Positions 1 to 54,206 of a stretch of DNA of 64,000 nt are shown one piece after another. How positions within the stretch are numbered: the stretch's first letter is position 1; each line of letters starts with the position of its first letter. Source of the DNA: Pyrinomonadaceae bacterium (GTDB lineage: Bacteria > Acidobacteriota > Blastocatellia > Pyrinomonadales > Pyrinomonadaceae). Position numbers and translations under genes: made by a program. The stretch covers positions 62,794 through 126,793 of the forward strand of contig JAJQRF010000007.1 of the NCBI GenBank assembly GCA_021228405.1, written 5' to 3'. The notes beneath the pieces are model-generated. The model saw only the letters and a list, made by a program, of their open reading frames with translations. It was not told the origin of the DNA and did no database searches.

Positions 1-112
1 TGACGGATTCGATCGCCAAATTTTCGCGGTAAGCGATGCGGCTCATCGCGTCGTATTCCTGTTGCCTGATCGCCCAGACCGCGCCTTCGATGTATGCAAT
101 TACACGATTCAT
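1..112 (-). CDS. Head maturation protease (S49-like), N-terminus only
   Basis: Reading begins at an ATG (112-110) that overlaps the portal stop codon in an ATGA arrangement, and runs off the left window edge after 37 codons. The visible start, MNRVIAYIEGAVWAI, resembles the N-terminus of phage S49-type (SppA/ClpP-like) capsid maturation proteases, in which a similar hydrophobic stretch ending in WAI precedes the protease fold, and such proteases normally follow the portal gene. The catalytic serine and lysine lie outside the window, so the assignment rests on this short N-terminus and gene order. It could be another head protein. Confidence 0.5.
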   Translation of the reverse strand, partial: MNRVIAYIEGAVWAIRQQEYDAMSRIAYRENLAIESV

Positions 113-1482
113 TCGTTTGCTCCCGTTTGATCTGCCGAAGACTGATCTTGATCTTGTGCAGGTTCGGCGGTTTGCGTGCGCGGTTCGAGTCCGAACTGCA
201 CGTCGAGTTGTGGATAATGTTCGGGCGCGAACTGATAACCTGCGCGTGCCGCCGCATTGACATCGGTTGCCCAGTCGGTCGCTTCCGTATCGCCGAGAAA
301 ACACTTCGGCGTTAAATGCGCTTTGTCTTCGCCGAAGTTGACGACCGTTAAAAGTTTGTAGATATGCGACTGCACGGCGCGTTCGATCTGGCGGCGGAAA
401 TTCTGTTTGCGCGTATCGGCAACGTCCTTCGACGATTCACGGGCGGCGCGGGCATCCTTGTCGGCTTCGCCCGTGACGAGCGCATCGCCCAGAATGACTT
501 TGCGGATTTCGGAATTATTGTATTTGAGCGCGTGCGTGAATTGATCGCCCGTTCCCTGCACTTCGAGCTGTTTGATGTCGGCGGTATTCGGGATTGCAAT
601 CGATGAATTGTTTGCAAAGCCTTCGAGCGCACGCATCATACTTGCTTGCGCGGTTTCCTTTAGCGGAACTCCGTCTTTCATTTTCGGCGTGCCGTCGGTG
701 TTTTTAATATAAACGTCGTTTGCGCCATTGGCAGTTATGCCGACCTTTTTCGGAATCGCGGACGTTCTGCGCCATTCGGCATACTGGGCGCGGGTCAGTT
801 TTTTGTCGCAGTAGGCTTCGATAAGTGCGCGGGCTTGCGACAATCCGCGCGGATCGTTGTCTTCGAGCTCGAAAGATAAAATGAAAAACTTTTCGACGGG
901 AATAATTTCATCCGATGTCAGACTGATCGCGGAAGTCGAAACGACCGTTTGACCCGCACGCCGTGCACCGACGAGTCCGAGCACGTTGTAAAACTTATCG
1001 GTCACGAACGCGGTCGCGCGGTTCGGCTTCGGATTGAGACGGTCTAAAACGAGTTTGCCGTCGATCTGCGCGTCGGTTTGGTATTTGAGCACGATCTCGG
1101 CAACCTTGACACCTGAATAAAACGCCGATTTGAACATTTCACGCAGAACCGATTCGAGCGGGCGGCGCGTCACTTCGGGCGCAGTCGCTTTTTCGATAAA
1201 TTGAGCAATTTCTTCGGCTTCGGCAAATTCGGGATCGTCGCTGTCGGAAATTGCCGGAACGGGCTGAATTCCGTCCGAAAAAACCGCATCGACGAGAAAA
1301 TTCACATCCGATTCGATCTCGGCATCGAGCCGCAAACGGTCGAGCAGATGCGCGTTGAGACGGCGTTCGACACGATCACGGACGGAATTCGTGCGCGATT
1401 CAAAAACGGAACGGCTGCCGACGACATATTCTTCGTGCAGTTCGTTTTCTTCGATTTTTCGTGCGTTCGCCGTTTGCGCCAT
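109..1482 (-). CDS. Phage portal protein
   Basis: A 457-residue protein matching the size and layout of tailed-phage portal proteins, which form the dodecameric DNA channel at one capsid vertex and dock the terminase. A Mu-type (DUF935-like) portal is my best family guess: the central region has the FKSAFYSGVKVAEI segment and a later LTGEADKDARAARESSKD-like basic helix typical of the portal stem and wing. It lies directly between the terminase and a head-protease start. An ATG 11 codons upstream (1515) is in frame but falls inside the loop of the leader terminator hairpin. I chose 1482 because its context (CACCCGAA then ATGG) is the same as before the terminase ATG. Confidence 0.8.
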   Translation of the reverse strand: MAQTANARKIEENELHEEYVVGSRSVFESRTNSVRDRVERRLNAHLLDRLRLDAEIESDVNFLVDAVFSDGIQPVPAISDSDDPEFAEAEEIAQFIEKATAPEVTRRPLESVLREMFKSAFYSGVKVAEIVLKYQTDAQIDGKLVLDRLNPKPNRATAFVTDKFYNVLGLVGARRAGQTVVSTSAISLTSDEIIPVEKFFILSFELEDNDPRGLSQARALIEAYCDKKLTRAQYAEWRRTSAIPKKVGITANGANDVYIKNTDGTPKMKDGVPLKETAQASMMRALEGFANNSSIAIPNTADIKQLEVQGTGDQFTHALKYNNSEIRKVILGDALVTGEADKDARAARESSKDVADTRKQNFRRQIERAVQSHIYKLLTVVNFGEDKAHLTPKCFLGDTEATDWATDVNAAARAGYQFAPEHYPQLDVQFGLEPRTQTAEPAQDQDQSSADQTGANE

Positions 1483-1493
1483 TTCGGGTGAAA

Positions 1494-1571
1494 ATGCAAA
1501 ACGCCTCGAAAACATACTTATTCAGTAGTCTTCGAGGCGTTAATCTCGATAAATGCTCAGATTTTAGAGCA
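1494..1571 (-). promoter_or_regulatory. Structured leader RNA, copy 1 (candidate attenuator)
   Basis: On the minus strand the 5' leader of the portal operon can form hairpin 1 (5-bp stem, 1567-1571 with 1554-1558, loop TAAAATCT), then hairpin 2 (stem CGAG-type, 1545-1549 with 1532-1536, loop ATTAACGC). The 3' strand of hairpin 2 is also the 5' strand of an 11-bp hairpin (1531-1541 with 1500-1510) followed by a broken T-run, a weak intrinsic terminator. Hairpin 2 and the terminator exclude each other. A second copy with the same loops but different, still paired, stems lies at 8085-8150, which is direct evidence for conserved RNA structure. The ligand or protein is unknown. Confidence 0.7.
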
Positions 1572-1590
1572 ACAAATTTTTTCAGATTTC

Positions 1591-1619
1591 AATGTAAGCG
1601 AAAATCTTTAGAAAATCAA
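1591..1619 (-). promoter_or_regulatory. Late promoter for the portal operon
   Basis: Minus-strand -35 TTGATT (1614-1619), 17-bp spacer, -10 TACATT (1591-1596), followed after about 20 bases by the structured leader. The same arrangement (TTGAAA, 17 bp, TACTTT) stands before leader copy 2. Strand, spacing and the shared downstream CTGAAAAA segment support it. The transcription start is inferred. Confidence 0.65.
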
Positions 1620-3158: not shown

Positions 3159-3601
3159 TCTTCGGGTGAAAGTTTCGGCGGAACTCTGACGACCGTGTGC
3201 GAAACATTCGCTTCGACATCGTGTTTAATTTTATTTGAAAATGCGTCGCCCGATTCTTTGGCGGCTTGCTCCAAGATTTCGCGCATCGCCTTCGGGTTCG
3301 GATGGGCGTTGTCTTCCTGACGGTCGAGCATATTTTGAAGTTTCTGCAAACGAAACGCTTTATTCGCAATCGGAATATCGTTCACGTTCTTCAAAAACTT
3401 TTTGCGCGTGGAATTGAAGATTTTCCGCAGATCAGGAGAAAGTTTTTTATTCGTCGGTTGGTAATAATAGATACTTTGGATTGAAACTTCCAGACCGAAA
3501 TTTTCCTTCAATTGCGATTGAACGGTTTTCGGGCGTTCAAAAATCGCAAGCCGTTGAACTACAAATATTTGATGTTCTTTTTCTAAAGCGTGTTCAGCCA
3601 T
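3128..3601 (-). CDS. terS: Terminase small subunit
   Basis: A 157-residue basic, helical protein immediately upstream of and overlapping the large terminase gene, the usual place of the small subunit that recognises the packaging site. The N-terminal 45 residues (VVQRLAIFERPKTVQSQLKE) look like a helix-turn-helix of the DUF2280 type. A long alpha-helical middle (about 65-110) would mediate oligomerisation, and the C-terminal PPKLSPEEWL tail may contact the large subunit. Function is inferred mainly from position and general build; no catalytic motif is expected. Confidence 0.75.
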   Translation of the reverse strand: MAEHALEKEHQIFVVQRLAIFERPKTVQSQLKENFGLEVSIQSIYYYQPTNKKLSPDLRKIFNSTRKKFLKNVNDIPIANKAFRLQKLQNMLDRQEDNAHPNPKAMREILEQAAKESGDAFSNKIKHDVEANVSHTVVRVPPKLSPEEWLQQSKSSK

Positions 3602-3682: not shown

Positions 3683-3811
3683 TTAACCTTCCATTATGAT
3701 TCTGCCGTAAACGTCTTTGCGTGTTGGTGCTTTTTTTGAATTTTCACTTTTACGACAAAGCTCGCGGCGGATTTTGATAGCGCGAATCTTCTTTTTTGTT
3801 TTTACCTTCAT
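3683..3811 (-). CDS. Small very basic protein (42 aa)
   Basis: An ATG at 3811-3809 overlaps the TAA of the upstream DUF6527 gene (TAATG) and is preceded by GAGG at good spacing, so translation is probably coupled. The 42-residue product starts MKVKTKKKIRAIKIRRELCR and is about one third Lys/Arg, suggesting nucleic-acid or terminase interaction. I know no family for it. The 80 bases between its stop and the small terminase gene contain no further ORF of note. Confidence 0.6.
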   Translation of the reverse strand: MKVKTKKKIRAIKIRRELCRKSENSKKAPTRKDVYGRIIMEG

Positions 3812-5346: not shown

Positions 5347-5706
5347 TTAATAATCCTTGCTTAATCTTTCCTTTTCCAATTGCTGTTGTTTTTTTACGTC
5401 TTCTTGAAACTGCATAATCTGCATCGCCTGTGCTTTGCCTTCGTCGCGCCCCATCCATCTATTCATCACGTTCTGCGTCGCGGTTTCGTAAGCGATGCGG
5501 TTGATGAAATTTTCCCTGTTCTCTCGCTGAACTGTCGTGATCTGATTATAAAGAAACGGTGTCAGGCATAATGAAATAATCGTTGCCCAGTGACCGACCT
5601 TTTGAAAGGTCGATTGTTTTTGATGCGCTTCAAGCAAAGCGGTGATCGTTTCAAGACAAGTTTCGATTCGTTCAGCGTTTTCCTTTTTTTGCGGGAGTTT
5701 GTCCAT
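5347..5706 (-). CDS. Single-pass membrane protein, possible lysis accessory
   Basis: A 119-residue protein with a helical, charged N-terminus, one hydrophobic segment (GHWATIISLCLTPFLYNQI, about residues 37-55) and a long C-terminal helix rich in Gln/Lys/Glu that looks like a coiled coil (VKKQQQLEKERL). The gene overlaps the end of the putative holin by 35 bp. The layout of short tail, membrane anchor and coiled coil resembles Rz-like inner-membrane spanins, but the outer-membrane partner is not seen, so this is only a suggestion. Confidence 0.5.
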   Translation of the reverse strand: MDKLPQKKENAERIETCLETITALLEAHQKQSTFQKVGHWATIISLCLTPFLYNQITTVQRENRENFINRIAYETATQNVMNRWMGRDEGKAQAMQIMQFQEDVKKQQQLEKERLSKDY

Positions 5707-6154
5707 CTTCTTTAATATTCAAATAACGACTGCCTTCCTTTTTGACGAAAACTGCGAGCAATCCCCAGATCACCTGATTGGCGAATCCCATCAAAATAAA
5801 ACTGCCGAGCCAATAATTGACCATTTGCCGCTGCACGACAAAATAATCGTAGGTTAAAAGTCCGACCATAATGCCGAGCCCCCACGCGAAAGCGATATTC
5901 GTCCGAAGCGATGCGCGCGGATTGGTTTTGCGTTCCCATAAATAACTGAGAATGCCGCCGATGGCGGACATCAGCATACACAGACCCGCGAGCGTCGGAT
6001 GCGGTAGCAGTGCCGTATAGTTCAGGACCGGCTGTAAAATGAACGCGAACGCGCAGAATCCCGCATACACGCTCGAAAAAAAGAATAATTTTGCATTCAG
6101 AAGCGAATGAATCATTTTCGTTTCCGTAAACCAACCGAAGAATTGAATTTGCAT
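5672..6154 (-). CDS. Multi-pass membrane protein, candidate holin
   Basis: A 160-residue protein with about four hydrophobic segments (near 20-42, 50-70, 85-105 and 118-140) and a Lys-rich C-terminal tail (TPAKKGKR), which is the usual topology and size range of phage holins. It lies downstream of the endolysin gene in the same direction. Two start codons 13 codons apart (6154 and 6115) could give two forms, as in dual-start holins; this is speculative. Not assignable to a named holin family by eye. Confidence 0.5.
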   Translation of the reverse strand: MQIQFFGWFTETKMIHSLLNAKLFFFSSVYAGFCAFAFILQPVLNYTALLPHPTLAGLCMLMSAIGGILSYLWERKTNPRASLRTNIAFAWGLGIMVGLLTYDYFVVQRQMVNYWLGSFILMGFANQVIWGLLAVFVKKEGSRYLNIKEDGQTPAKKGKR

Positions 6155-6757: not shown

Positions 6758-8065
6758 TTATTTATTTAATGAGCTGACAAGCTCGTTTTGCCGACTGTCC
6801 ACGTCATCGGGATTTGTCGGGATAAGATTGTGCGAGTTCGGATCAGCCATTGCCTTATAACAGTTAAGGACGAATGAGCCGACGAATTCGCGGTGTTTAT
6901 AAATCAGTAAAAAGAAACCGAAAACCGCCGCGCCGGTGATGATGCCGATCGATAATTGAGCGACCCACGACGCACTTTTGAACCAACTGACGATAAATGT
7001 CAGAAACGAACCGAACGGAACGAGCGCGAGATATTTCTGCCAACCGAAACGCGGGATAAATGCAGGGATATTTTTCGGATCGAAAACGTTTTCCGTGAGC
7101 GTCGTGGTTTGCTCGACTGTTCCCTGCACGGTTTCGACCGTGTTTGAGATTTGATTTTCGACCTTTTGCAAAGAACCGGAAAAAGGCGGCGGAAATTGGG
7201 CGGGAATTGTTGCCGATAAGTCAACATCCGCAGGTTGAACGGAAAGATTGCCGATGCTTTCCGTCGGGATGTTTATGATTGGTTCCGCCGCCGAAACTGT
7301 TTGATTTATTTGCGGAATGTCGAGCTTTATTTCAGCCGATTGCAAATGCGCGAAAGTGTTTTTTTCCGCGATCTTTTGCGCGAGTCTTGCCTTCGTGCCG
7401 TCGCCGACGATACCGTCAGCCGTCAAGCCGTTTTGACGTTGAAAACCGATGACCGCGTTTTTCGTGATCTTGCCGAATTCGCCGTCGATTTCGTGTGCGT
7501 GAAGATAACCGAGTGATGCGAGATCGGCTTGGAGTTTGCGAACTGCTCCGCCGATGTCGCCGAATTCGAGAATATCGTCTGCGGCAGGCGTAAAAACGGC
7601 GGGCTTTGCGCCGCGCAGAATATTGTCCATTCTCTGCCAAACGGCAGTTAAACCGCCTTTGCTGTATGCGGCGAAACATTCCTTGACGCTCATTCCCTTC
7701 AATTGGACGTGCGGCTTGTCGGTAAACTTCCAATCGCCGCCCCATTCCAGACCGAGTTTTTTGGCTTCGCGCCCGATGAGATTGAAATTTTGCAGATTAT
7801 CGTAATTCAATCTGCCGTTCTCGAACGGGCAAAGATCGACCGCCAAACCGTAATTATGATTTGATTGACCGCCTCGGGCTTTTGTTACGATCTGCCCCGG
7901 CGCGGTGCGACCTTTGGCAAAAAGTTTGTTTTGTTCGTCGAATGTCCGCAACCCGTCGGTCACGACGACCGTTAAACCGAGATTGCCGAGAGCGGCGATC
8001 AGTTTAGTGATGCGTGAAGCTAATTCGGGATGAACTTTTTTCAATTTTTCGGCATTTTTATCCAT
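6758..8065 (-). CDS. Endolysin: M15 peptidase with peptidoglycan-binding domain and C-terminal TM
   Basis: Residues 1-125 are a VanY/M15C-type zinc L-alanyl-D-glutamate or D-alanyl carboxypeptidase domain with SNHNYGLAVDL (His70, Asp77) and DKPHVQL (His119) as metal ligands. Residues about 160-230 form a PG_binding_1 domain (LEFGDIGGAVRKLQADL...DGIVGDGTKARL). A linker follows, then a transmembrane helix near 370-395 (IGIITGAAVFGFFLLIY). The 435-residue length is larger than simple endolysins because of the C-terminal membrane part, which could hold the enzyme at the membrane until release. No Shine-Dalgarno sequence is visible. Expression is preceded by leader copy 2. Confidence 0.88.
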   Translation of the reverse strand: MDKNAEKLKKVHPELASRITKLIAALGNLGLTVVVTDGLRTFDEQNKLFAKGRTAPGQIVTKARGGQSNHNYGLAVDLCPFENGRLNYDNLQNFNLIGREAKKLGLEWGGDWKFTDKPHVQLKGMSVKECFAAYSKGGLTAVWQRMDNILRGAKPAVFTPAADDILEFGDIGGAVRKLQADLASLGYLHAHEIDGEFGKITKNAVIGFQRQNGLTADGIVGDGTKARLAQKIAEKNTFAHLQSAEIKLDIPQINQTVSAAEPIINIPTESIGNLSVQPADVDLSATIPAQFPPPFSGSLQKVENQISNTVETVQGTVEQTTTLTENVFDPKNIPAFIPRFGWQKYLALVPFGSFLTFIVSWFKSASWVAQLSIGIITGAAVFGFFLLIYKHREFVGSFVLNCYKAMADPNSHNLIPTNPDDVDSRQNELVSSLNK

Positions 8066-8073
8066 ATATTTTC

Positions 8074-8150
8074 AAAAACAAAAAGCCGTGTTCGGAATTC
8101 GTCGGAATCCGAACACGGCGTTAATCGTGTAAAAGCCCAGATTTTAGGGC
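8074..8150 (-). promoter_or_regulatory. Structured leader RNA, copy 2 (candidate attenuator)
   Basis: Minus-strand leader of the endolysin gene. Hairpin 1: stem 8147-8150 with 8135-8138, loop TAAAATCT. Hairpin 2: stem ACACG/CGTGT (8126-8130 with 8113-8117), loop ATTAACGC. Overlapping it is a long terminator hairpin at 8085-8119 (about 15 bp, one bulge) followed by TTTTTGTTTTT. Loop sequences are identical to copy 1 at 1532-1571 while every stem has changed with compensating bases. Pairing of hairpin 2 would block the terminator, so the element can switch transcription of lysis genes on or off. Confidence 0.75.
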
Positions 8151-8171
8151 AACATAAAATTTTTCAGTTCA

Positions 8172-8200
8172 AAAGTAAACTATTTAGGCTGATTTTTCAA
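8172..8200 (-). promoter_or_regulatory. Late promoter for the endolysin operon
   Basis: Minus-strand -35 TTGAAA (8195-8200), 17-bp spacer, -10 TACTTT (8172-8177). It has the same spacing and downstream CTGAAAAA segment as the portal promoter, so the two late units share promoter and leader design. Confidence 0.65.
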
Positions 8201-8471: not shown

Positions 8472-8693
8472 CTAATGTTTCCCCCAAGAATTATTATAAC
8501 CGCAATTCGGACAGGTCAAAGCCATCACGGACGAACCTTTTTTCGGAATGATGGTTAAAATCTTATCGCCGTTTCGGACGAACATTTTTTTGCCGTCCGT
8601 TTCGCAAAGGATTTCCGTGCATTTTTGATTCGTGCCGCGAACTGTTCCCTTGCAACGCATTTCTTTTTTGATTGTTTCCGTTGTTTCGATCAT
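8472..8693 (-). CDS. Small zinc-ribbon protein
   Basis: A 73-residue protein beginning MIETTETIKKEMRCKG behind a GAGGG ribosome site. Four metal-binding positions are visible: Cys at MRCKG and KCTE, then CPNCGYNN near the C-terminus. This makes a two-knuckle zinc ribbon like phage Com-type translational regulators, but the similarity is only general. A longer reading frame starting at 8735 has no ribosome site and was not chosen. Confidence 0.5.
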   Translation of the reverse strand: MIETTETIKKEMRCKGTVRGTNQKCTEILCETDGKKMFVRNGDKILTIIPKKGSSVMALTCPNCGYNNSWGKH

Positions 8694-9349: not shown

Positions 9350-9546
9350 TTGTTTCTTTTTCCGACTGACCTGTTCCCGATCCTTTCGCGCCTTTCATCA
9401 AATTTCTTGTCGAATTCGTCGGCTTCCTTTTTGGCTCGAAAAAACCAAATCCAAATCACCGATGACGGCAAAAGCCACAACAAAAGCAAAATCAAAACGA
9501 ATAACCATAAAGGCATATTCCGGATGTAATTAATAAATTCATTCAT
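9346..9546 (-). CDS. Small single-pass membrane protein
   Basis: A 66-residue protein with a strong hydrophobic helix (PLWLFVLILLLLWLLPSSV, residues 12-30) and a highly charged cytoplasmic tail (KKEADEFDKKFDERRERIG). Start and stop codons overlap both neighbours by four bases. Function unknown; such proteins include holin-like and superinfection-exclusion peptides. Confidence 0.5.
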   Translation of the reverse strand: MNEFINYIRNMPLWLFVLILLLLWLLPSSVIWIWFFRAKKEADEFDKKFDERRERIGNRSVGKRNK

Positions 9547-39202: not shown

Positions 39203-39991
39203 TTATCCGCAGAGAACCGCACCGCCGTTGATGTTGATGACTTCGCCCGTTATGTGGCGCGACCAATCGGACGCGAGGAAAATTATCGAAAGAGCAACAT
39301 CGTCGGCGGTTGCGACGCGTTTCAGCGGGATTCCGTTGATGACGCGCCCGACGAATTCTTCATCGTGGAATACTGGATCGTTCAGATTCGTATCGACCCA
39401 ACCCGGCGCGACCGCATTGACGCGGATTTTCGGCGCAAGCTCGTTGGAAAGTGCTTTTGTAAACGAAATTTGTCCGCCTTTTGAAGCCGCATAATTTGAA
39501 TAACCCGCTTCGCCGCGCTGTCCGGCGGTCGAGGAAACGATGACGATGTTTCCTTCGCTTTGGCGTTTGAAATAATCGCTGACCGTTTTGCAAATCGTCC
39601 AGGTTCCCTTCAGATTCGCGTCTAAAACCCTGTCCCAGAGCGATTCGGACATTTCGTTGATAGGCGCACCTTCCCAGATTCCCGCGTTTGCGATTAATAA
39701 ATCGACGCTTCCGAATTTTTCGACCGTCGCGGCGGTCAACTTTTCGGCTTCGCTCAGTTTTGAAACGTCCGCCTGCACCGCAATCGCTTCAACACCGAGC
39801 TTTTTACATTCCGCCACGACTTCTTCGGCTTCGCGTGCGTGCTGAAAATAATTAACCGTGACATTCGCGCCCGCTTCGGCTAAACGCAACGCCGTCGCGC
39901 GTCCGATTCCGCGCGATGCACCTGTCACGATCGCGGTTTTTCCGCTCAATAAATTGCCTGGTAATTTTTTATCGACAACCTTTTCACTCAT
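39203..39991 (-). CDS. SDR oxidoreductase (FabG-like)
   Basis: A 262-residue short-chain dehydrogenase. TGASRGIG (about residues 24-31) binds NAD(P)H; the catalytic Ser and YSNYAASKGG (Tyr-x3-Lys) follow near residue 160. It is about as similar to 3-oxoacyl-ACP reductase FabG as to 3-hydroxybutyryl-CoA-type SDRs. A close paralogue lies at 53418-54206. The N-terminal extension (MSEKVVDKKLPGNLLSGK) is a family feature of both copies. Substrate unknown. Confidence 0.88.
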   Translation of the reverse strand: MSEKVVDKKLPGNLLSGKTAIVTGASRGIGRATALRLAEAGANVTVNYFQHAREAEEVVAECKKLGVEAIAVQADVSKLSEAEKLTAATVEKFGSVDLLIANAGIWEGAPINEMSESLWDRVLDANLKGTWTICKTVSDYFKRQSEGNIVIVSSTAGQRGEAGYSNYAASKGGQISFTKALSNELAPKIRVNAVAPGWVDTNLNDPVFHDEEFVGRVINGIPLKRVATADDVALSIIFLASDWSRHITGEVININGGAVLCG

Positions 39992-40015
39992 AAATCATTC
40001 ATCCTTTTGCCCTTT

Positions 40016-49860: not shown

Positions 49861-50216
49861 AAATGATTTTGAAGTTCCTGACAATAGTTTTGCCGTGGAG
49901 CGACAAAATACGCGCCGGTTTTACCTGAAAATTATCCGAAATATCACGAATCTTTTTCAGATAAACTACCATTTTTACTGTTTTCGAGTGGATTTTATAT
50001 TTATTTTTATTGAACTGTCAAGACCTTTTTTGCATCCGAAACGGTGCGTCGGGATTTATTATTTGATTGGCAAGGGTTTAAAGCGGAAAATTATTTATTT
50101 AAGCCGATTTATCAGTCGTTTAGTTTCTCACGTGTCGGGTTTTTATTCAGTTATTTAGAGTTCTTATAATTTTTTCTACAGTTTTGCCGTTATGGTGTCA
50201 AATATTTAAGATTTCT

Positions 50217-50425
50217 TCTTTAATTTCTATAACTTCTTCTACGGCTCTGTCGTCAGGCTTCTTTATTTTCATAATTTCTCTATGGCTCTACCGTCAGGCT
50301 TCTTTAATTTCTATAATTTCTCTACGGCTCTGCCATTAAACTTCTTTAATTTCTATAACTTCTTCTACGGCTCTGCCGTCTGTTTCTTTAGTTTTTATAA
50401 TTTCTTCTACGGCTCTGCCGTCCGA
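50217..50425. repeat. Tandem array with about 42-bp period, five copies
   Basis: Units of about 41-42 bp contain the core CTACGGCTCTGCCGTC followed by CTTCTTTAATTTCTATAA. Five copies are seen. The plus-strand translation is a repeated FNFYNF/STALP pattern without a convincing gene start. No spacers are present, so it is not a CRISPR array. Confidence 0.65.
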
Positions 50426-50555
50426 TGTGCGGAAAGGCTCTGCCTTTCCGAAAGTTTTCACTAAAAATTTGAGGCTCCGCCTCGCCTTACCGTTTAAATT
50501 CGAGGCACAGCCTCAAATTTAAAAAAGTATTTCACGGAAAGGCAGAGCCTTTCCG

Positions 50556-50707
50556 CACATCAACGGGCAAAGCCCTTTAAAAGTCAGAGTCTTTCCCCAC
50601 ATCAACGGGCAAAGCCCTTTAAAAGTCAGAGTCTTTCCGCATATCAACGGGCAAAACCCTTTAAAAGTCAGAGCCTTTCCCCACATCAACGGGCAAAGCC
50701 CTTTGAG
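50556..50707. repeat. Tandem array with 42-bp period, nearly four copies
   Basis: The 42-bp unit begins CACATCAACGGGCAAAGCCC and has the word TCAGAGTCTTTCC; copies start at 50556, 50598, 50640 and 50682 (last one cut). They differ at a few bases. The array lies next to another 42-bp array of unrelated sequence and a GC-rich hairpin (about 50466-50521). The 1.19-kb stretch 49529-50717 has no other supported gene. Confidence 0.7.
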
Positions 50708-50717
50708 TTTTGTTTAT

Positions 50718-51064
50718 TTATCGGGTATTTTCCTTATCAACAACTGATTTTTTCAAACCATCGAGATAATGTTTAGATGTCCAATACAGATCAGCCCAAC
50801 CGAAACCGCGATTCAGTCTGTCCGTTTCCAAAATCTTCACGAACAGTTCGAGTTCCGAAATATCTTGCGGCTGATTTTCGATGTATTGCAGAAGTTTTTT
50901 CGACAGATACAATCCGAGATACCATTCAAACGCCTGTTTGCTCTGCTGTTGTTCGGAATTTTCGGCTAAATTTTCAAAGTATTTGATTAGCCGCCGTGAA
51001 TGCCGTTCGGCGCGTTTGTGAAATGGCTCGTTTTCACTCTGATTTTCGTGATTATTTTCCTGCA

Positions 51065-53297: not shown

Positions 53298-53417
53298 AAT
53301 TCGGTATATGTTCATACAAATTTGGTTGCGTTTTTATCTGAATCGGCATCAAATCGTTCGGCGTTTTGATATTTTCAAAATAAAAGTTTATAACACGATA
53401 AATAAACAATAAAACTT

Positions 53418-54206
53418 ATGGCTGAAAAACCTGTCGAAATCAAACTTCCCGCGAACCTTTTTGAAGGCAAAACCGCGATCGTCACGGGCGCGTCGCGCGG
53501 CGTTGGTCGCGCCACCGCCCTGCGTCTTGCCGAAGCGGGCGCGAACGTCGTCGTGAACTATCTCCGCGAAGAAGAAAAGGCGAATAATGTCGTTGCGCTC
53601 TGCAAGGAAAAAGGCGTTGACGCGATTGCCGTGCAGGGCGACGTTTCCGAATGGCTCGACGCGCAAAATCTAGCGAAACAGGCAATCGAAAAATTCGGCA
53701 GGATCGATCTTTTAGTTCTCAACGCGGGAATCTGGGAAGGCGCGCCAATCGAAGAAATGAGCGAAGAAACGTGGAACAAGGTTTTGAACACGAATCTGAA
53801 AGCGGCGTGGGCGATGACGAAGGCTTGCGTCCCTTCGATGAAGAAACAGGAACGCGGGGCGATCGTTTTGGTTTCGTCAACGGCAGGTCAGCGCGGCGAA
53901 GCGAACTATTCAAACTACGCCGCCTCGAAAGGCGGACAGATTTCGTTTACGAAAGCACTTGCCTCCGAACTCTGCCCGAAAATCCGCGTTAACTGCGTCG
54001 CGCCCGGCTGGATCGAAACGGCGATGGTGCGTCCCGTTTTCGAGAACGAGGAATATAAACAAAAGGTTCTCAGCACGATTCCCTTGAACCGGATGGCGGC
54101 GACCGACGACGTTGCACTCTCGATCTGTTTTCTGCTCTCCGATTGGTCGCGTCATATCACGGGCGAGATTCTCAACATCAACGGCGGCGCGGTTTTGTGC
54201 GGTTAA
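53418..54206 (+). CDS. SDR oxidoreductase (FabG-like), paralogue
   Basis: A 262-residue short-chain dehydrogenase of the same subfamily and length as the one at 39203-39991: the N-terminus MAEKPVEIKLPANLFEGKTAIVTGA, TGASRGVG for NAD(P) and YSNYAASKGG for the catalytic Tyr-Lys are all there. The two share the GQRGEANYSNYAA and SRHITGEILNINGG stretches. Duplication in the lineage is likely. The stop overlaps the convergent endonuclease/phosphatase gene. Confidence 0.88.
   Translation: MAEKPVEIKLPANLFEGKTAIVTGASRGVGRATALRLAEAGANVVVNYLREEEKANNVVALCKEKGVDAIAVQGDVSEWLDAQNLAKQAIEKFGRIDLLVLNAGIWEGAPIEEMSEETWNKVLNTNLKAAWAMTKACVPSMKKQERGAIVLVSSTAGQRGEANYSNYAASKGGQISFTKALASELCPKIRVNCVAPGWIETAMVRPVFENEEYKQKVLSTIPLNRMAATDDVALSICFLLSDWSRHITGEILNINGGAVLCG

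Follow-up and report, generated by a model that had tools for sequence, protein, structure and literature searches.

A candidate attenuator-like leader precedes both the endolysin and portal genes of a Pyrinomonadaceae prophage and recurs in related uncultivated phages

The window, by which we mean the whole stretch of 64,000 nucleotides (nt) analysed here, is part of a prophage in the 5.7-Mb genome of a Pyrinomonadaceae bacterium. The prophage encodes an integrase, an HTH repressor-like protein, a DnaB-type helicase, an S49 protease, a Mu-type portal, a terminase, and an endolysin. The endolysin gene (M15 peptidase plus PG_binding_1) occupies positions 6758..8065 of the minus strand, with its ATG at 8065, and the portal gene (Portal_Mu) occupies 109..1482 of the same strand. 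The listed start of the portal open reading frame (ORF), 1515, falls inside the loop of a terminator described below, and an ATG in the same frame at 1482 agrees with where the gene begins in relatives. A leader of similar build stands ahead of each of the two genes. The lysin copy is flanked by the endolysin gene on one side and by ORFs for a small zinc-ribbon protein and a 79-amino-acid (aa) protein on the other, and the portal copy lies between the terminase and portal genes. Elsewhere in the window are direct-repeat arrays with a spacing of ~42 bp (50152-50746) and an inverted duplication of ~790 bp (39203-39993 and 53416-54206), in which four blocks are 72 to 78% complementary and lie 13 to 15 kb apart. 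The same genome holds a second, distant terminase-like gene (L266; G000 C7 1133873-1134340; 31% identity), perhaps belonging to another prophage.

The original prediction placed an attenuator-like element ahead of the endolysin gene at 8200-8074, and our analysis bears this out, coordinates included, with all parts on the minus strand. The element opens with a promoter-like site (8172..8200) composed of a -35 box TTGAAA (8200-8195), a 17-bp spacer, and a -10 box TACTTT (8177-8172). The sigma-70-like promoter proposed here is present as a site with 17-bp spacing, but the match is modest, with 0.062 of 2000 shuffled sequences scoring as well. Downstream lie UGUU (8151..8154), the proposed 5' strand of a pseudoknot with AACG in the loop of the second hairpin; hairpin 1 (HP1; GCCC-UAAAAUCU-GGGC, 8150-8135); and hairpin 2 (HP2; CACG-AUUAACGC-CGUG, 8114..8129), a putative antiterminator that overlaps the 5' arm of the terminator. 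The terminator hairpin itself (8085..8119) has 15 pairs with one bulge and a predicted stability of -24.5 kcal/mol, and is followed by the U-rich tail TTTTTGTTTTT (8074..8084). Because the 3' strand of HP2 (8117-8114) lies within the 5' arm of the terminator, HP2 and the terminator are mutually exclusive, as had been claimed.

The 105-nt lysin leader has a predicted fold of -33.3 kcal/mol against a mean of -17 kcal/mol for shuffled sequences (z = -5.45; 0 of 200 shuffles as good). The terminator accounts for most of this excess, since pieces cut before its 3' arm give z scores of -1.90 (lysin copy) and -2.68 (portal copy). Attenuation by a leader peptide was considered and dropped, as by eye only the window lysin leader and the leaders of the related phage L249 (see below) have ATG-led frames, and these run to 2 to 3 codons.

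The portal copy, at about 1619-1491 on the minus strand, presents the same order of elements. Its promoter-like site (TTGATT-17-TACATT, 1591..1619; 0.096 of 2000 shuffles as good) is followed by UGUU as the proposed pseudoknot strand (1571..1574), HP1 (GCUC-UAAAAUCU-GAGC, 1555..1570), HP2 (CGAG-AUUAACGC-CUCG, 1533..1548), and a terminator hairpin with the core CGCC...GGCG (1502..1539, -25.8 kcal/mol). The complete portal leader also folds better than its shuffles (z = -6.39). The description of this second leader as having the same loops on changed yet still paired stems proved accurate: the loops agree at 16 of 16 positions, the stems agree at 10 of 16, and each of the three base pairs that differ is compensated. 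Two matches to the two-loop pattern were found in the window, where 0.00 were expected, and the entire 5.7-Mb genome likewise holds two. The concentration of identity between the window copies in the loops suggests that these letters are under constraint.

Searches with the exact two-loop pattern returned at least 120 stretches in the viral_contigs collection and at least 117 in genome_contigs, and 5 of 396 genomes of the phylum had a match, the prophage's own genome included. A stem filter applied to the 245 matches listed kept only the two window copies, each of which appeared twice because L001 and L002 repeat them; exact copies may exist beyond these matches. A tighter two-loop pattern matched 6 stretches of viral_contigs, none with both stems by eye. 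L312, a match to the four-copy pattern described below, has a terminator and an HP1-like stem and was rejected, its HP2 reaching at most 3 pairs. A Thermaceae contig (L183) carries two matches of equal length to the two-loop pattern, 2.4 kb apart (3296-3319 and 5704-5727), without the stems. The leader DNA gave no match among phages in one search and one match at chance level (E = 0.3) in another.

The portal matched only its own genome among 99 genomes of the family, 162 of the class, and 396 of the phylum; it matched no phage at 1e-5 and no plasmid. The portal search alone returned no relative from viral_contigs, and alignments then gave L249 and later L380; L271 is a weak portal match. Terminase relatives in G203 (two) and MW202444 were set aside, as a different gene follows the terminase and no element is present.

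Five more copies of the leader were found in three related uncultivated phages, for a total of seven copies in four phages, and all seven stand before an endolysin or portal gene. In three of the four phages, a copy stands ahead of the endolysin gene and another ahead of the portal gene. The first of the relatives, L249 (also G467; IMGVR_UViG_3300001798_000017), was found through its terminase, which is 81% identical to that of the window; one of its copies precedes a PG_binding_1 endolysin and the other a portal 53% identical to the window portal. A pattern built from the window and L249 copies (n = 4) matched 95 stretches of viral contigs, and among the 81 distinct matches ranked by pairing, inspection picked out one newcomer with all parts, G468 (also L307; IMGVR_UViG_3300037833_000028), again with one copy before an endolysin gene and another before a portal gene. 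The G468 portal in turn matched 22 distant phage records at 1e-2. The fourth phage contig, L380 (IMGVR_UViG_3300049432_000168), was found by alignment of its portal (50% identical), ahead of which its copy lies; it shows the portal side alone, the lysis side being out of view because the terminase match begins at the contig end.

These copies are not independent. The two in L249 are nearly identical, which may reflect recent copying, and the portals of G468 and L380 share 76% identity. The G468 terminase is unrelated to the window terminase save for a short C-terminal stretch, and the N-terminal part of the endolysin cannot be aligned between the window and G468, the alignment starting only at G468 residue 138; the leader has therefore stayed while its neighbours changed. 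It had been predicted that further copies with covarying stems and identical loops would precede late phage genes. Such copies do exist and their stems covary, but loop identity, complete or nearly complete, holds within a phage and not between phages.

The covariance-model search proposed for this purpose had weak reach. Built from the two G468 copies, the model ranked the L380 copy as its top non-self match (E = 0.019), with an unrelated site next (E = 0.072), and recovered neither the window nor the L249 copies, even with E allowed to reach 10; the five additional copies were gained by the pattern and protein-alignment routes. The element had also been described as belonging to no recognised class, and this agrees with Rfam 15, in which the window, L374, L375, L377, and L380 gave no match at the gathering threshold, the sub-threshold matches (one plus two) lying outside the element. 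Within a limited collection of literature, represented by partial texts, we found no description of such an element, and the word "phage" is absent from the available portion of PMC2965389.

Pairing was counted over a hand alignment of the seven copies, as MAFFT could not align their diverged cores. The inner four pairs of HP1 are formed in 28 of 28 cases, as are the HP2 pairs (28 of 28, of which 27 are Watson-Crick). Among all 5040 reassignments of 3' strands to 5' strands, pairing as complete as this was reached in only 4 for HP1 and 12 for HP2, which are swaps of identical strands. In four copies the 5' strand of HP2 is the same as the 3' arm of the terminator (4 of 4 positions), and in the other three it is one transition off, so the exclusive choice between the two structures is kept while the letters change. 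This sharing of a strand between HP2 and the terminator, ahead of a coding sequence, is the arrangement by which an attenuator is recognised, and it is present in all seven copies. The anatomy, the pairing, the placement, and the recurrence of the element can be read directly from the sequences, and on these grounds we regard the paired attenuator-like leader with covarying stems in four phages as a real finding.

A candidate pseudoknot, in which 5' UGYU pairs with ARCG in the HP2 loop, has 4 of 4 pairs in every copy except that of L380, where 3 of 4 form. Once formed, it would mask the AACGC at the start of the terminator. Its two strands show one two-sided change between the G468 copies (UGUU/AACG to UGCU/AGCG); a single double change in 3 to 4 pairs is suggestive of covariation and not proof of it. 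In truncated L249 leaders the predicted fold instead pairs UGUUG with CAACG and has no HP2, and the predicted folding of the 80-nt L249 pieces that lack the terminator 3' arm does not surpass that of shuffled sequences (z = -0.66 and -0.63).

Antiterminator-like pairing of at least 5 pairs, under loose rules, was seen at 128 of 360 other terminators, and because it is so frequent, a single copy alone proves little. Such a background, together with the modest promoters, would fit ordinary terminators whose role is to keep upstream transcription out of the late genes, with small hairpins that arose by chance. We consider this rather improbable, given that the copies occupy matching places in four phages with pairing specific to the strands of each copy, and that a terminator without release would silence the genes behind it unless promoters lie elsewhere. 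A rule-based scan found exactly the 7 copies in the window and phage stretches (170,889 bases), 0 in three terminase relatives (65,191 bases), and 1 in 355 other loci (2,809,380 bases); its rules were written after the copies had been seen, so these counts describe the copies and are no independent test.

The loops follow a different pattern from the stems. HP1 loops read UAAAAUCU in the window (an identical pair), CSGAGU in L249 (CCGAGU and CGGAGU), C(A)UUCU in G468 (CUUCU and CAUUCU), and UUUUUU in L380; they are thus alike within a phage and wholly different between phages, and the HP2 loops share mainly their A(A/G)CGC end, which is kept in all seven copies. A riboswitch, in which a metabolite or ion would bind the fold of HP1, HP2, and pseudoknot and so set termination, would have a like layout, with a pseudoknot and a terminator sharing a strand, and could account for the constant end of the HP2 loop. 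We nonetheless find it quite unlikely, as the HP1 loops differ wholly between phages and Rfam gives no match at threshold. Likeness within and difference between phages favours a phage-specific or phage-encoded partner over a metabolite, and a phage-encoded partner that changes along with the RNA appears to fit the HP1 loops best. By eye, HP1 of both L249 copies (3691-3712 and 9460-9481) contains CCNNNGAG, a motif selected for Mu Com according to the available part of PMC6483171; it is absent from HP1 of the other phages, perhaps a matter of chance.

The same observations bear on whether any phage protein is needed. In the excerpted text of PMC9378689, phage HK022 has two similar put RNAs of ~70 nt, each with two stem-loops, downstream of two promoters, and here too each phage with both sides in view has two leaders of two hairpins. 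Hairpins of this kind could act directly on RNA polymerase and make it resistant to terminators. Such a cis-acting element is unlikely here: HP2 shares a strand with the terminator in all seven copies, which suits attenuation better, and the HP1 loops are not conserved between phages.

Attenuation is also in keeping with the relative stability of the alternatives. The terminator hairpins of the seven copies range from -23.5 to -30.4 kcal/mol and the leaders without the 3' arm from -11.8 to -16.3 kcal/mol; being much the more stable, the terminator, left alone, should win and keep the genes off. Promoter-like sites, scored against 2000 shuffles, were found with 17-bp spacing and ending 14 to 17 nt before UGUU in 5 of 7 copies (0.004 to 0.096 of shuffles as good). 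The portal copies of G468 (0.226) and L380 (0.677) have no good promoter at this shared position, and better-scoring sites lie farther upstream of the window portal copy (82 nt) and the L249 lysin copy (69 nt). Opposite-strand frames, resembling inserted genes, lie just upstream of the leader for both G468 copies (L375:9861-10607 and L307:4903-5295) and L380 (5725-6687), and these long frames would call for a promoter near the leader.

Leaders of some phages are known to give rise to small RNAs, and a promoter-like site followed directly by a strong terminator is what would be expected if the terminated leader were itself the product, a small regulatory RNA with incidental read-through. That possibility seems very unlikely to us, since the element always abuts a late gene, the terminator stem ending 19 to 21 nt from the ATG in 6 of 7 copies (19 nt in the lysin copy) and 35 nt from it in the seventh.

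The gene that we regard as a candidate trans-acting partner, a role that is a guess, encodes a small zinc ribbon at 8472..8693 on the minus strand and has relatives in L249 and G468. Each of the three phages whose lysis side is in view has it upstream of the lysin copy, separated from the leader by an opposite-strand frame in G468 and by the 79-aa ORF in the window. The proteins are 67 to 74 aa long with four conserved cysteines, and in single comparisons the window protein matches that of G468 at E = 2e-13 and that of L249 at 8e-5, while the G468 and L249 proteins match at 0.001 over 28 residues. A hairpin (AATTCC...GGAATT) and a T-rich stretch are visible by eye just before the start of the zinc-ribbon gene in L249 (3380-3433).

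In database searches this protein matched no family or PDB entry significantly. Its best Pfam match (E = 0.024) is below the cut-off, PHROGs has none up to E = 1, and no NCBIfam family was found over the three members. The best match among PDB sequences, at a nonsignificant E of 0.47, is an RNA-binding zinc ribbon. The structure model has a pLDDT of 69.5 and a pTM of 0.51, and a Foldseek search with it gave no match at E = 0.001 or below. Among 396 genomes of the phylum only its own genome was returned, and among phages nothing at E = 1. The zinc ribbon as releasing factor is our guess, drawn from its position and kind, and other shared genes could also fill the role.

A zinc ribbon beside a leader hairpin could also point to translation. 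Mu Com, a zinc finger described in the accessible part of PMC6483171, binds a hairpin in mRNA and activates mom translation, and by analogy the zinc ribbon might bind a hairpin here and aid ribosomes. In favour of this, the tract between stem and ATG has none of six Shine-Dalgarno-like 4-mers tested in any of the seven copies. It is nevertheless the least probable of the explanations we considered: the hairpin has U tracts behind it, as in a terminator, and ends at least 19 nt short of the ATG, and profile comparison detects no kinship with Com (hhalign probability 3.6% over 11 columns around CPxC; no Com model among the Pfam matches up to E = 1).

Judged on sequence and placement, the element is best read, with a probability of roughly 55%, as a transcription attenuator that is off by default, controls two late operons of a temperate phage, and is released by a factor from the phage, perhaps its zinc ribbon. 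Against this reading stand the weak promoters, the L249 copies whose truncated leaders show no predicted HP2, and the small number of phages. RNA polymerase would start just upstream and make a leader of roughly 80 to 100 nt, in which HP1, HP2, and the short pseudoknot (5' UGYU with ARCG of the HP2 loop) could form first. Once the 3' arm of the terminator emerged, the far stabler terminator would take the shared strand, and polymerase would stop short of the endolysin or portal gene. At a late stage of infection, a factor encoded by the phage might bind the HP1/HP2 fold and block the terminator, or ride with the polymerase, and both late operons would then come on together. The candidate for this factor is the zinc ribbon whose gene lies upstream of the lysin copy. 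Within this scheme we consider default-off attenuation likely and favour a phage protein over a metabolite as the ligand; we infer that termination takes place in cells, that release is regulated, that the ligand is a protein, and which protein it may be. More tentatively, and with the odds somewhat against it, the system could be a self-contained late switch of a non-lambda kind, in which a phage zinc ribbon without a family reads a pseudoknotted leader, one per late operon, and opens lysis and assembly jointly, RNA and protein co-evolving phage by phage.

The timing of late genes is known in detail for few phages. In the group of uncultivated phages described here, both late operons carry a compact RNA element, and a candidate partner gene that can be tested adjoins it. 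If the attenuator reading is true, the leaders would represent a new RNA class and the partner a new kind of antitermination protein, together forming a simple RNA-protein switch that would offer a way into the timing of host lysis by such prophages.

Several known systems resemble parts of this arrangement. In lambda, the N protein, a partner that the phage itself encodes, acts with nut/boxB sites whose hairpin loops resemble one another within a phage and differ from phage to phage, as appears to be the case for the leaders here. BoxB is a 15-nt hairpin with a purine-rich, GNRA-like pentaloop, whereas the HP1 loops are 5 to 8 nt long and mostly not purine-rich, none is a GNRA-like pentaloop by eye, and the terminator lies within the element. 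In lambdoid phages the Q gene sits just upstream of the lysis leader, a position like that of the zinc-ribbon gene, the candidate regulator here. The lambdoid pR'-tR' region with Q (the consulted part of PMC6606751) likewise has a late promoter, a short leader, and a terminator ahead of lysis and assembly genes, but Q binds a DNA site at the promoter, whereas here RNA structures are conserved and covary, in two copies; no member of the Q family was found among the scanned part of the phage's proteins. HK022 put, as far as the excerpt of PMC9378689 describes it, also provides two similar elements per phage with two stem-loops each, but it needs no phage protein and acts on early genes at a distance, whereas HP2 shares a strand of the adjacent terminator before late genes. 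Mu Com and mom (PMC6483171, in part) offer another small phage zinc finger with an mRNA hairpin ahead of a start codon, but Com acts on translation and the proteins have no detectable kinship. The closest parallel comes from the dfn and mln operons of Bacillus velezensis, where, in the portion of PMC12691694 available, each operon has a small leader hairpin followed by an intrinsic terminator and one trans-acting protein, LoaP, opens both. LoaP differs in being a NusG relative that uses a UNCG-type hairpin separate from the terminator, a loop type that none of the seven leaders has by eye, and in having no part in phage late genes within that text. With two operons that each carry a similar leader hairpin and terminator, the element described here would work most like the LoaP leaders.
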